From Proales similis (taxonomy: Eukaryota > Rotifera > Eurotatoria > Ploima > Proalidae), in assembly GCA_019059635.1 (NCBI GenBank), contig JAGVRJ010000007.1, positions 2,046,001 through 2,110,000 of the forward strand: a DNA stretch of 64,000 nucleotides. Reading direction: 5' to 3'. Shown here piece by piece: positions 32,144 to 38,152 of the stretch; the stretch's first letter is position 1; every line of letters begins with the position of its first letter. The translations under genes and the position numbers were made by a program. The notes beneath the pieces are model-generated. The model made no database searches. It saw nothing but the letters and a program-made list of their open reading frames with translations, and was not told where the DNA came from.

Positions 32144-33577
32144 ATGATAGGCAACAATCGAAATGGAATCAGACTTTGGGAAGTGTGGACGTCGCGGCTG
32201 CTCAGACGCAAGCTGACCTACCGGCTCCTGGTCGGCCTGCTCAGCCTCAACATTCTGGTCAGTCTGGCCATTCTGCATCAGCAGTCTACGCTCAAGGTGT
32301 TTTTCTACGTCTACTACTCGGACGTGAAGCAATATTACGACAACAAGCAGCTCGTGCACACTCTCGGTCAGTTTGGCGCCAGACTGAAGCATTCGCCTGC
32401 CCGCGAGCACCACGATCTCGGGCATCCGCGGCAGCAGTTCATGTTCGACGGCACGGTCGATTACGTGCTCAACAGCGAGTCGGTGGCCGAACTCTTGCAT
32501 TCGAACAATGTGCAGCGTCGTCAGTTCTATTTGCCGCGTTTGATAATAAACAACAGCCAACTGTGCAGCAACTCGACCGAGCAAGCGGGCGGCCATGGGC
32601 GGTCGCCGCCAGTTTTCCTTCTCTCGCTAATTCACTCGCATTACAACAACTTCATGCGACGACAGAGCATGCGCGACAGCTGGCTCTCGGTGCGACACGA
32701 GCCGGTGCGCATAAACGGCCAGACGATGAGCGTCAGGCATCTGTTTGTGATTGGCAACGATTTCAATCCGGCCACCTACAACATGATCAAACAAGAGGCG
32801 GACACGTACAACGACATAATCATGATCGAAACGTTCGAAAGCTACCAAAACCTGCTGTACAAGCACATGGCGCTGGTGGACTGGGTGCTGGACAATTGCG
32901 AGCGCGTGCGACTAGTCATGAAGCTGGACGACGACGTGTTTGTCAACATTCGCTCGCTGCTGCGTCATCTGACCGAGAAGGCGCTGCCCAGCTCGAGTCC
33001 CTTTCTCTACTGCAACGCAATCGACTCGGCCTGGCCTGCCCGGCAGCCCACCTCCAAATGGTTTGTAAATCAGAGCGCCTATCCGTTCGAGCACTACCCG
33101 CGCTATTGCGAGGGCTTTGCCTACATCACGAACGTGGCCACTCTCCGGCTCATGAGGCGTCAACTCACACTGGTGCCCCGCTTCTGGATCGACGACGTCT
33201 ACATGACCGGCCTTTTGCTGAACGCGTCCGGCGATGCGATTGCCTGGCACAGTTTCAAAGAGTCGCAACTCACGTGGACGTTCTACGACTTTTGGGACGT
33301 CAAGAACAAACTGGGCAGCCTCTACGCGCTTTTCATGAAACTGACGGGCACCAGTGTGGCCGACTCCTATCGCTCCAACCACTTTGTGATTCTGCATTTG
33401 CAACGCGAGAATGAGCACGTGGACTACAGTGGCCTGCGCCGCTCCAAATGCCTCAATCGAACGCATTTAGGCCAAAGCAGGGCAGCTCGACTGACCATGT
33501 CCGACTGTCTGCGAGACAATGGCGACTTTCTTGGCGCCAATTTCTACGAGTTTTGTGCCAAATTATGGTCAAACTGA
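32144..33577 (+). CDS. GT31 Golgi glycosyltransferase (beta-1,3-Gal/GlcNAc transferase type)
   Basis: Predicted 477-residue type II membrane enzyme of glycosyltransferase family 31, which adds galactose or N-acetylhexosamine in beta-1,3 linkage from UDP-sugars in the Golgi lumen. A short basic cytosolic tail precedes one TM helix at about residues 26-46 (LLVGLLSLNILVSLAIL), then a stem and the catalytic domain. RRQSMRDSWLS matches the family's R-x-R-x-S-W motif. FESYQNLLYKH and the metal-binding DDD (residues 262-264, KLDDDVFVN) are intact. YPRYCEGFAY and FWIDDVYMTG are the later GT31 blocks. It is a single exon. The first ATG of the frame is at 32144. Acceptor and sugar cannot be read from sequence. 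It lies 1.5 kb upstream of the transporter/pyruvyltransferase fusion on the same strand. AATAAA lies at 33719. Confidence 0.9.
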   Translation: MIGNNRNGIRLWEVWTSRLLRRKLTYRLLVGLLSLNILVSLAILHQQSTLKVFFYVYYSDVKQYYDNKQLVHTLGQFGARLKHSPAREHHDLGHPRQQFMFDGTVDYVLNSESVAELLHSNNVQRRQFYLPRLIINNSQLCSNSTEQAGGHGRSPPVFLLSLIHSHYNNFMRRQSMRDSWLSVRHEPVRINGQTMSVRHLFVIGNDFNPATYNMIKQEADTYNDIIMIETFESYQNLLYKHMALVDWVLDNCERVRLVMKLDDDVFVNIRSLLRHLTEKALPSSSPFLYCNAIDSAWPARQPTSKWFVNQSAYPFEHYPRYCEGFAYITNVATLRLMRRQLTLVPRFWIDDVYMTGLLLNASGDAIAWHSFKESQLTWTFYDFWDVKNKLGSLYALFMKLTGTSVADSYRSNHFVILHLQRENEHVDYSGLRRSKCLNRTHLGQSRAARLTMSDCLRDNGDFLGANFYEFCAKLWSN

Positions 33578-33853: not shown

Positions 33854-35130
33854 TTCAATCAGGATTTGCGACTGCTCGATCCTCAATTGGGTGCACTTCA
33901 TTTCGGCAAATAAGAGAGACGCTCAGCATTTCGAAGCGACAACAATCAATCCATCATCGTCGTCATCATCATCGTCATCTGGCATCGTCGTTCCTTTCAG
34001 TCGAGCAAGCTCGGTGCGAAAGTAAAAAATTCTCAACGAAACAAATATCCGACCCAACCTGTCGAAAGGCAGAACGAGAGAGAGACAGGGAGAGAGGGAA
34101 AGGCTTGTAGTAGGAGCAGAGAGATAAGGCCTAGGTGGAAAATGAAGCAAACGACGAGCAGAAACAGCTAATTATGAACCAAAAGGGCCGAGCAGCAGCG
34201 AACAAAAAATCTGGGACCCGAGAGATAAAGCGAAATTACAAGCGCGCTCGATAAGGACGGTGAAGCGACTCTTTGGCCTTTATCTCGGCAGAGAAAAAAA
34301 AAGCGAGCAATGAGGCGGAGGAGAAGACAGGTTAATGAGATGAGTCGATTCGGACGTTAGAAAAAGTTTAAGCTGAAATCGACCAAGTTGCAGCAACAAA
34401 AAAGAAGAGCTACAGAGCGAATGAACGCGCAGGTGCTTGGTGAGTACTGGCCGTATGCGACTTGGCAGTGATTGATGGAGAACAGAGGCAGAGAAAAGCA
34501 ACGGCAAAAAGCTGAATCGATCAAGCTTGGGAAAAAGGCAAATGTGCGCTTGAGTATGTATGTATGGAGATTTGAGAAAAAAATGTAATCGCAAACGAGT
34601 GCGTATTTCTTCATTTTCGCTTATTTCTTCTATATGAACATGAATGAATGAAACATATACACGCAGGGGCGCGTCAATTCGACTGGGAAATAAATCAATT
34701 AAGCTAGGCACGTAACGCTCGTTTCGTTTTCGTTCAGTGCTTCAAATGACATTGTTGGTTTCAATTTGCTCGAGTGAGAGAGAAACGGAATTTTTTAATT
34801 CCTTTAAACAAAAAGGAGAGCGAGCGAGAGAGCGATAAATCAAGCGCTTAATCCTTTGGCTAATTTGAAGCGGCTTAGAGCGTTGCATTTAGACAAATAG
34901 TCCGGAGAGCCAAACAAAAAGAGAGACATAAGCACGCTCAATAATTAAAGAGTAAGAACTCTTTTAGCTCGTTTGGTTCAAGTTAATGCTGACACAAATT
35001 CAAGACGAGTGAATAGAGAGGAGAAACACACAAAGAGATTAAGGCAAAAAGTGTAAAGTACAGAAAAAGCCAGAGTTGCATGTGAAACAACCAGCTCCAA
35101 GTGCGAGACGCCGATTCAAATGAATTGAAC

Positions 35131-37250
35131 ATGAGCTCCGGCCTGCTCAGTGTGCGACTGGTGTTCAACGTCGTTTGCTGGTACGCGTTCACGGTGGTCA
35201 GCGCGCTCTACTCCAAACGCTTTTTCAACCTCACTCATGAGCCTCATCTGCTGACGATCGTTACGTTCGCTTATGGGTTCGCAATTCGACTGGGCCGCGG
35301 CGAGCTGGGCAGGCTGATGCGCGAGCAGGCTCTCTTGCGCGTCTTCTGCCTGCTCGCCTTGTTCAACGTGGCCTCCACGCTGCTCACCAACATTTGCATG
35401 AACGAGACTTCGGTGGCGCTCACCTACATTGTCAAGGCGAGCGAGCCCGTATTTGTCATCGTCCTGTCCTACTTCATCCTGGAGCAGAGCTTCACGCTGC
35501 CCGTGCTGCTCTCGCTGGTGCCCATCTGCACCGGCGTTACTCTCACCATCGCCGGCGAGATTCACTTCTCTTCTCTCGGCTTGGTCGCCATCCTGAGCGC
35601 CAATCTGGCGACGGCTGCTCGAAATGTCTTTTACAAAGCGGCCGGCGCAGAGACAAAGCTCTCTGCCAGTCAGAACGAGCAGCCAAGCAGCCACCTGAGT
35701 CCGTTCGGCGCCTACGTGACCATCTGCTTCTTGTCCATGCTGTTCTACTTGCCCGGCTTTCTGCTCGGACAAGTGGTCAGACAGAGTTGGCCTCAGGAAC
35801 AGCTCACAGCCGAGGCGGGCGTGTTTCTTCTCCTCGGTTCGCTCTGCAACTTCCTCTACAACTTGTTCTCATTTCGCGTTCTTGACGACCTCGCGCCAAT
35901 CTCGCACTCGGTGCTCAACATGATGAAGCGAGTGTTCACCGTCTTCAGCTCTTTTCTCTACTTTGCCAATCCGGTCTCTGGCACCCAAGTGATGGGCATG
36001 TTGATGGCCGACTCGGGCGTCTTCTTGTACTCCTACTTGAAGGTCAGGGCGCCCAAGCAGTCGATCACAATCAGAGACTCGGTGAAGAAGCTCATCCGCA
36101 AGGCGATCATGACAGTGATAGTCTCCGTTCTGGTGTATGCCTGGTTCCGGACCACCGTCCCTCCGCCCAGGACCAGAACCATTCGAGTGGAGCTGGTCAA
36201 CCATGCCAAACGCTTGGAGTGCATATCGGCCGTTCAGGCCAAAATCATTGAGCCCTACTCGACAGTGATGCCGCGCAACAAGTCATGTCACCTGCTTGAC
36301 CTTCCGTTCTACGACAACTACGGCGACACTCTTATTTGGTGAGTTGCACGGCTGTGTGTCTTTTTGTGCGCGCGCTTGAATAAGTTTGCCCGGACAGGAT
36401 TGGCGAAGAAATTCTGCTCAAAAAGTTCGCATTGAAAGTAGCTCACCGATCGAACTTGGAAGGCGATTCTAGTCGAGGAATGGCCGAACTCAAGAAACTG
36501 TTCAAACCCGACGATCTCATTCTGCTCCAAGGAGGAGGCAATTTCGGCGATCTATATTTAAAGCATCAAAATTTCCGCAGCATGATCATCAAGAACTTCA
36601 ACAACTCGCAGATTGTTCTCTTCCCACAGACGATCAACTACCAGAACAAGAGCCGCGTCGACATGGATCGGGCCGCTTTTGAGAAAAACGCTCGTCTCTC
36701 GCTCTCGTTCCGCAGCGAACAGTCCTACCAGTTCGCTGTGAAGCACTTTCCCAACACCAAGGTGCTTCGAGTGCCCGACATGGCATTCATGATCGGCAAC
36801 GTGCCCTATGCGCAACATCCGCGCGTCGACGTGTTCATTCTCAGACGCACCGACAAGGAGTCCAATTTCAACCACAAGCTGTGGCAAAAGGCCTACAAGC
36901 ATTTCAGCATGGCCAACGTAACGTACGAAGAGACCGACTGGTACGGCATTCCGCACAGAAAGCCGGCCAACCTCGAGGAGATGTACAGAGTCCGGCTCGA
37001 GCTGGTCACCAGCATAATGGCGCGAGGCAAGCTGGTGATCACCGATCGCCTCCACGCCAGCATCTTCAGCGTGCTGATCGGCAAGCCGCACATAATCATC
37101 AACGACAAGTACAAGAAGATAGTCAACACGCGCTCGCTCGCTTTTTCTCAAATTGAAGCCTGCAGCCCGAGTAATTTGGGCGAGGCCTATGCCGAAGATC
37201 CGTTCGAAGCTGTTTTAATTGCCATCGAGTGGCTTTATTTTCTGCGCTGA
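35131..37250 (+). CDS. Fusion: TPT/SLC35-type transporter + extra TM + polysaccharide pyruvyltransferase
   Basis: Predicted 686-residue protein from exons 35131-36338 and 36398-37250, joined by a 59-base GT-AG intron inside a conserved Trp codon. Residues 1-310 form about ten helices of the triose-phosphate translocator branch of the drug/metabolite transporters. They include YIVKASEPVF near residue 100, Lys169 (ARNVFYKAAG) and the Lys266-Arg267 pair (NMMKRVFTVFSSF). These match phosphate-binding positions of plastid translocators. An extra helix follows at 321-340 (AIMTVIVSVLVYAWF). From about 385 a full pyruvyltransferase domain follows: LLDLPFYDNYGDTLIW, QGGGNFGD (near 447), VLFPQTINYQ, VFILRRTDKES and LVITDRLHASIF (near 616). 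The first enzyme motif lies in the same uninterrupted frame as the transporter, so the fusion does not depend on the intron model. Inferred role: import of phosphoenolpyruvate into the Golgi and transfer of pyruvate to glycans. AATAAA lies at 37466. Confidence 0.9.
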
Positions 37251-38152
37251 TTTATTCTTGTCTGTTGCTCATAAAACCGGCTGGCAGCTGCTTCTTCTTC
37301 TTCTTTTATTTTAACTGAGTGAATCCCGAGCGATCTGCTTTTCTGGCTTTATTCATTCTCCCAAGACGAGATCAGTTACAACCCTGGCCGCTTAGAATCT
37401 CGTCAGCATCCATCCGCAGCGCCTCTCATTGTCGACGAGTGTGTTCCAAGACAATTCTATTAATAATAAACTTTTTGTTTCTCTCTGATTCTATTTTCTC
37501 TTCCTCTCTCTCTGGTCTCTTTGCCCAGTTTTAAAATTAGAATGGAGAAGAGATGAAGAGAGTAAAGCTCAGGGGCGGCTCTGTCAGGTGTGGCAAATCA
37601 CCAAAACAAAAAAAAAGAAGTTGCTTGAACTTGATTTGAGCGATGGCCAACATGCTTCAATGATTTGCGTTTTTGTTCTTTTGATGAAATTCTTGTCGAG
37701 AGAAAGGAAGCGATGCGCGACCAAATCAGCAATTGCACGATTCCTTTCTGTCTCCTCTTTTTCTCGTTGCTAACGCATTTCAAATTGACGCCCGACTCGT
37801 CACTTGGCTCGCTCGACAATTACCACAATGAACGAGAAGCATGGTCGCCAAATAGAGAAAACGAGCATTAAGATAAATTCCCTAATTGCGTGTCTGTCTC
37901 TCTCTCTCTCTTTCTCGTCCTTTTTGTGTCTCCCTGCATCTCTCCGTGCCCTTCTCGCTCTCTCTCTCTCACTCGTATTTGGCCCTTGGTCTGAATTCAT
38001 CAACAAGTGCTCACTTTTTTCGTCGTTTGTGAATGATTGGAATTTTTCTTCTAATTGACGCCTGCCTGCCTTTGATTGGCCACGATCTATGCTGAACTCT
38101 TCGTCCATGTCAAGCAAATTTTTCTAATTTATACTCGATTCGGCCTGTTCAG
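37251..38152. other. Spacer downstream of the fusion gene
   Basis: Contains the fusion gene's poly(A) signal at 37466 and CT runs. At the right end is a pyrimidine-rich stretch with a CTAAT branch-point-like motif, ending in CAG directly before the next ATG. Confidence 0.5.

Follow-up and report, generated by a model that had tools for sequence, protein, structure and literature searches.

The window, i.e. the whole 64-kb stretch of DNA analysed here from Proales similis, a marine monogonont rotifer, lies on a 2.3-Mb contig (C7) of a searched genome of 15 contigs and 32,716,893 bases. The animal origin given in a preliminary description of this DNA is borne out by the neighbouring genes, with two innexin genes, one for a nuclear receptor and several for G-protein-coupled receptors. 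Within the 64-kb window, no match came from scans for tRNAs or against Rfam (gathering). In the genome as a whole, Chitin_bind_4 and Col_cuticle_N had no hits, a result that falls short of demonstrating absence. On the forward strand, an ATG at 35131 opens a gene whose stop codon ends at 37250, and the limits previously given for it correspond exactly to the start codon and the last base of the stop. Its predicted spliced product has 686 amino acids and joins a carrier of the TPT (triose-phosphate transporter) family to a polysaccharide pyruvyltransferase (PS_pyruv_trans). The following features were recorded.

32144..33577, forward strand: glycosyltransferase gene of the Galactosyl_T family (PF01762, E 2.8e-40), 1.55 kb upstream of the fused gene and on the same strand
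35131..36338, forward strand: exon 1 (coding), with the TPT carrier, the linker, an 11th hydrophobic helix and the first ~25 residues of the pyruvyltransferase domain, up to YDNYGDTLIW
35158..36033, forward strand: TPT domain (DMT superfamily), residues ~10-301, from PF03151 and PDB 5Y78
36091..36153, forward strand: interdomain hydrophobic helix (TM11 by reading), residues ~321-341, from hydropathy
36339..36397, forward strand: predicted intron, GT-AG, 59 nt, phase 2
36398..37250, forward strand: exon 2 (coding), with the remaining PS_pyruv_trans domain including GGGNFGD, ITDRLHA and the stop, from PF04230 and Pvg1 5AX7
37465..37470, forward strand: AATAAA, 3' of the stop

The carrier-then-enzyme order proposed earlier agrees with the Pfam matches (TPT in exon 1 and PS_pyruv_trans in exon 2, both above cut-offs), and the motifs YDNYGDTLIW, GGGNFGD and ITDRLHA were all found. 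The idea that both domains share one continuous frame holds for the carrier/enzyme junction and the first conserved motif (YDNYGDTLIW), which lie inside the uninterrupted exon 1, but not for the enzyme domain, which contains the predicted 59-nt intron. A stop at 36340-36342 closes the TPT frame directly after this motif, and the rest of the enzyme is found in another frame (ORF 36384-37250); removal of 36339-36397 yields the stop-free join ...DTLIW-IGEE.... This splice is a prediction on which most of the enzyme depends, and it is well supported, since in two paralogues an intron of identical position and phase is predicted and metagenomic relatives end at the same residue (see below). On the forward strand between 34900 and 37600, no AATAAA or ATTAAA polyadenylation signal separates the two domains; apart from the one listed above, the only such signal is at 34944, 5' of the gene.

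Exon 1 matched Pfam TPT PF03151 with an E-value of 3.1e-50 and 171.6 bits (cut-off 30), and the carrier matched the Galdieria phosphate translocator GsGPT (PDB 5Y78) with an E-value of 4.2e-23. NCBIfam TIGR00817 (plastid-type phosphate/PEP translocator) gave 128.3 bits, under its curated cut-off of 317.9. The carrier belongs to the TPT family by the Pfam curated cut-off and falls outside the curated plastid Tpt group. Plastid phosphate translocators are carriers alone, and those of plants that exchange PEP for phosphate have the motif N-L-L-T-N; compared with these, the C7 gene reads T-L-L-T-N and the metagenomic relative P0023 reads N-F-L-T-N.

As in GsGPT (PDB 5Y78/5Y79), the TPT domain is nearly full-length and the equivalents of K204, K362, R363 and Y339 are kept. 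We took T188, Y339 and H185 of GsGPT to be substrate residues; T188 and Y339 fall on T86 and Y243 of the C7 gene, T86 being placed by equal lysine spacing and not by the printed gap. K204, K362 and R363, which coordinate phosphate according to passages of PMC9010763, are K102, K266 and R267 of C7 in the 5Y78 alignment, the numbering offset of GsGPT being taken from these three residues themselves. T86, K102, Y243, K266 and R267 are invariant across the 4-row carrier alignment A3, and the carrier of the C13 paralogue retains the lysine, the tyrosine and the KR pair, with N at the place of T86. Unlike these, H185 of GsGPT is not kept in the Proales carrier, and its place varies within the family (by eye: T83 in C7, N in P0023 and P0024, I in P0026 and C13).

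A stand-alone TPT-family gene at C12:1302.8k, inspected by eye as a control, also has the lysine and the KR pair, so these residues mark the family and not PEP. PEP, taken in the preliminary description as the imported donor, is a candidate cargo of the carrier half, and its direct channelling to the enzyme would be a putative further step. A rather unlikely reading, still deserving some weight, is that the fusion is real and the enzyme active but that the carrier moves another cargo (sugar phosphate, nucleotide or another anion) or acts chiefly to anchor the enzyme in the Golgi, PEP arriving by another carrier. Both the phosphate-coordinating residues shared with the stand-alone gene and the variable H185 place speak for it. 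An anchor alone would need none of the five residues invariant in the four rows, and two further observations against this reading come from the paralogues described below.

Exon 2 alone matched Pfam PS_pyruv_trans PF04230 with an E-value of 1.2e-26 and 94.7 bits (cut-off 25.3), and its best solved match was fission yeast Pvg1 (PDB 5AX7, P0118; E 6.1e-34, phmmer). The bacterial enzymes CsaB and WcaK, which are soluble and share this fold family, matched weakly at its C-terminal motif, far under the curated equivalog cut-offs (19.9 bits for CsaB TIGR03609 of NCBIfam, cut-off 213.1). The enzyme belongs to PS_pyruv_trans by the Pfam curated cut-off and lies outside the curated CsaB group. Exon 2 had no match in PHROGs, and two scans of viral contigs returned 51 and 84 pattern matches, among which no relative was confirmed in either scan.

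The likeness to Pvg1 extends to single residues. D106, R217 and R337 of Pvg1, proposed as catalytic in passages of PMC4872226, align with D399, R508 and R620 of C7, and C12 and C13 have the same residues, i.e. the pyruvyltransferase half recognised earlier conserves the proposed catalytic residues in all three paralogues. H168 of Pvg1, which hinders one acceptor type, is H459 of C7 and is kept in all three Proales genes; at this place P0030 has G, and P0028 and P0047 have S, so acceptors may differ within the enzyme family of the fused genes. As for the Pvg1 disulfide C68-C373, C373 is kept as C658; C364 is the likely partner, although its aligned place is three residues off C68. In Pvg1 as here, where it is predicted at 321-341, a hydrophobic helix precedes the domain.

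Four places in the genome matched PS_pyruv_trans: three are TPT-PS_pyruv_trans fusions, on C7, C12 and C13, and the fourth is on C9. The six TPT matches are the three fused genes, two pieces on C12 that look like one stand-alone gene, and one sub-cut-off place on C1. In all three fused genes TPT precedes PS_pyruv_trans and an intron is predicted at the same residue and in the same phase (59 nt in C7, 57 in C12 and 54 in C13); C13 has one extra predicted intron of 64 nt inside the carrier. Identity between C7 and C12 is 95% for the carrier and 77% for the enzyme; between C7 and C13 it is 41% for TPT and 44% for PS_pyruv_trans. The C7/C12 DNA alignment consists of a single piece, window 35119-37240, which corresponds to the coding unit, with none in the compared flanks. 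Between C7 and C12, dN/dS is 0.16 for TPT and 0.19 for PS_pyruv_trans, so that both halves are under purifying selection; dS between C7 and C13 is saturated in the carrier. Shared introns, the extent of the DNA alignment and the low dN/dS together indicate that the fused gene went through at least two duplications in one piece and that selection has preserved both halves.

These results bear on the reading in which the carrier has another cargo or is mainly an anchor: selection on the carrier is as strong as on the enzyme, and its pairing with a PEP-using enzyme type in three paralogues favours a shared substrate. They also bear on the suspicion that the gene is a chimera of two unrelated genes produced by assembly or annotation, a reading to which we assign a very small probability. 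The junction lies inside one open exon, and three genomic copies exist, whose domains range in identity from 95% down to about 40%.

A side observation concerns the unequal divergence of the two halves. In the stretches compared between C7 and C12 (window 35131-36338 against L013 3997-5204), dS is 0.16 in the carrier half versus 0.70 in the enzyme half, with a switch near window 36050-36200; the pattern resembles that of gene conversion between the two copies over most of exon 1.

Relatives were sought in other species with each half. With the enzyme half as query, protein databases gave 22 proteins; none had both domains, i.e. none of the 22 was annotated with PF03151 and the ten that were rescanned lacked TPT. 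A seven-row profile search, in which 8000 candidates were scored, gave six proteins, including the metagenomic TPT proteins P0023, P0024 and P0026 (391-419 residues, 36-43% identical to exon 1). These three share the same linker and the same start of the enzyme domain, i.e. the same carrier/enzyme junction. P0024 and P0026 both stop at NYGDSLIW, and P0023 continues for eight residues past NYGDTLIW, which is the intron place in C7.

The complementary search with an exon-2 profile scored 8000 candidates and gave 5666 matches, of which the best 120 were examined. P0028, P0029, P0036, P0040, P0043 and P0047 start 1-29 residues before the post-intron GEE (GEQ in P0043), and other exon-2-like frames of the group start further in. 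P0024 and the exon-2 match P0029 are probably two exons of one gene, since a 2644-base contig of the same source is given for both. P0030 from Brachionus plicatilis, 48% identical, crosses the splice point as NYGDSLIW-LGEE; its model comprises the enzyme domain alone, with an N-terminus that is not a carrier and has no hydrophobic stretch, either because the gene model is too short or because the carrier has been lost.

The absence of this domain order as one complete protein from both protein searches able to reveal it, together with the carrier-less Brachionus model, is what a chimera would lead one to expect; against this stands the same junction in P0023, P0024 and P0026. Rather than being always encoded as two separate genes, the homologues repeat the two-domain order looked for in relatives, as complete fusions in the two paralogues and through exon 1 in the three metagenomic proteins. 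On these comparisons, the fused gene of the rotifer is real and not due to chance.

The position of the stop codon deserves separate consideration. Unspliced RNA at the C7 donor reads TGG TGA (W-stop) at 36338-36342 and would give the carrier and linker with a clean stop, and the paralogues do likewise (TGG-TGA in C12, TGG-TAG in C13). One could propose two products, unspliced RNA giving the carrier alone and spliced RNA the fusion, or else a parting of the halves after translation. We regard this as improbable: W-stop codons right at the donor in all three genes, and P0024 and P0026 stopping straight after LIW, are in its favour, but many GTA or GTG donors in this phase give a stop, which is expected without any function, and P0023 runs on for eight residues.

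A quick tree was built from 62 rows, i.e. the three Proales proteins and 59 hand-picked proteins out of 145 fetched, with SH-aLRT as the only support measure. C7 and C12 grouped with P0028-P0032, including Brachionus (98), and C13 with P0033 and P0037 (96), both paralogue groups lying inside one 24-row clade (99). The tree program flagged long branches for P0025 and P0027 and odd composition in six rows, including P0030. Should this tree be correct, the duplication that separated C7 from C13, and hence the fusion, would predate the split between Proales and Brachionus. The rotifer clade was nearer to Balamuthia and to membrane-anchored rows of eukaryote type than to the two named bacteria, with moderate support (82-94).

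Gene transfer is a known trait of rotifers, and the enzyme half might be a recent acquisition from bacteria, with a bacterial-type capsule chemistry. Besides this habit of rotifers, such an origin could draw on the best 120 of the 5666 exon-2 matches, which include two named bacterial proteins and many entries to which a source assigned names of bacterial style (EpsI, EpsO). We give it little credence, as the grouping with Balamuthia and the anchored eukaryote-type rows in the hand-picked 62-row tree and the best solved match, yeast Pvg1, both speak against it.

TPT and nucleotide-sugar carriers have ten helices with both ends in the cytosol. Hydropathy of the C7 product gave ten hydrophobic stretches, then an 11th at 321-341, then the enzyme. 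Ten stretches precede the linker helix in C7, C12 and C13 alike, at a loose threshold that also marks stretches of soluble domains, and the interdomain helix is kept in both paralogues. Given ten carrier helices with cytosolic ends, the 11th helix would put the enzyme in the lumen. Charge does not decide the topology, with five K+R before TM11 and six after. Structure models were too weak to use, both for exon 1 (4 rows, mean pLDDT 39.2) and for the protein P0001 (5 rows, mean pLDDT 54.7, residues 1-325 below 50).

The cysteines offer another view of the compartment. Cysteines in both windows of the Pvg1 disulfide were present in 14 of 16 anchored rows versus 3 of 65 others; the exceptions were the anchored rows P0010 and P0012 and the unanchored rows P0013, P0030 and P0058. 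For this count, 81 of 148 sequences passed a motif filter (both domain ends and enough N-terminal sequence) and 67 were dropped; the windows were 20 residues wide, kinship was ignored, and the filter may misplace single rows. A cysteine pair that tracks the membrane anchor suggests an oxidising, lumenal environment for the enzyme.

Other proteins, too, have hydrophobic stretches ahead of this enzyme domain. P0001, P0002, P0004 and P0007 (614-685 residues; P0004 from a eukaryote transcriptome set) resemble the Proales protein in having several N-terminal helices, a last helix and an enzyme domain, the latter 28-35% identical. Their helical half gave no Pfam family above cut-off, TPT included, and no homology to TPT was found for it, hhalign giving a probability of 0.3 (0-100 scale) against the rotifer carrier. 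In these proteins the enzyme may have been fused to a membrane domain independently.

Carriers of the TPT type work by swapping phosphorylated compounds for phosphate. Phosphate is also released when a ketal pyruvyl group is transferred from PEP (PMC8615578), and in fission yeast PEP enters the Golgi via Pet1p and Pet2p for use by Pvg1p, as stated in parts of PMC6801904 and PMC4872226. The Proales protein is like yeast Pet1/Pet2 plus Pvg1 by the proposed division of labour, i.e. PEP import and lumenal pyruvylation; these are separate genes in yeast, unlike the one chain with 11 predicted helices in Proales, and the separate-gene arrangement was not encountered here, three of the four genomic PS_pyruv_trans places being in one unit with TPT.

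We consider it fairly probable that the gene, one of three paralogues, encodes an antiporter of PEP and phosphate in the Golgi joined to a lumenal glycan pyruvyltransferase of the Pvg1 type. Its product would be a protein of the Golgi (or ER) membrane, with ten carrier helices whose ends are cytosolic, an 11th helix and a lumenal ketal-pyruvyltransferase. The carrier half would let PEP from the cytosol enter the lumen against phosphate; there, the enzyme half would pass its pyruvyl group on to a terminal sugar (probably galactose) and release phosphate; and the carrier half would return this phosphate to the cytosol as the counter-ion for the next PEP. Since a TPT carrier exchanges phosphate and the transfer frees it, one chain would balance itself, PEP in and phosphate out. 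Topology, compartment, PEP as cargo, galactose as acceptor and the coupling of the two steps are the parts of this mechanism that we infer.

The Galactosyl_T gene upstream of the fused gene is possibly the maker of the acceptor; in fission yeast, the galactose that receives pyruvate is the work of a galactosyltransferase, pvg3, according to passages of PMC6994554. Its membership of a gene cluster was considered and dropped, as no Galactosyl_T frame was seen by eye beside the C12 or C13 genes and the genome holds 22 matches to this family (19 with E <1e-12), several of them clustered on C3 and C4. Separately, the PS_pyruv_trans place on C9 (L011:4054-6807, reverse strand) is a 917-residue open frame in which a glycosyltransferase family 8 domain is followed, at the C-terminus, by a partial match to PS_pyruv_trans; it is another enzyme fusion of this genome, distinct from the first. 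A reverse-transcriptase-like frame (by eye) occurs close to it, at L004 168-770.

The preliminary description knew of no animal pyruvylation system with this architecture. For animal pyruvylation as such, this can hold for enzymes only, since pyruvylated glycans have been described in the sea hare Aplysia (nerve glycolipids) and in sponges (proteoglycan) in passages of PMC6801904 and PMC6994554; the passages of these two papers on animal pyruvylated glycans name no animal enzyme. A literature search over titles and the starts of abstracts, weak in that it covered few subscription journals, gave, among the records listed, no rotifer pyruvyltransferase and no TPT-pyruvyltransferase fusion.

The Proales genes provide a concrete animal gene family in which the proposed pyruvyltransferase active site is intact. 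The fusion lends itself to a clean test of possible coupling between donor import and glycan transfer within a single chain, because the by-product of the enzyme, phosphate, is what a TPT-type carrier exchanges. In its full form the proposal is tentative and falls somewhat short of probable: a single animal protein may import its own activated donor and cap surface glycans with acidic pyruvate ketals, using phosphate as counter-ion. If true, no animal pyruvyltransferase would have been assigned to a gene before, as far as the literature searched shows, and the family would represent a capping system of monogonont rotifers, comparable to sialic acid, that was duplicated before the split between Proales and Brachionus.
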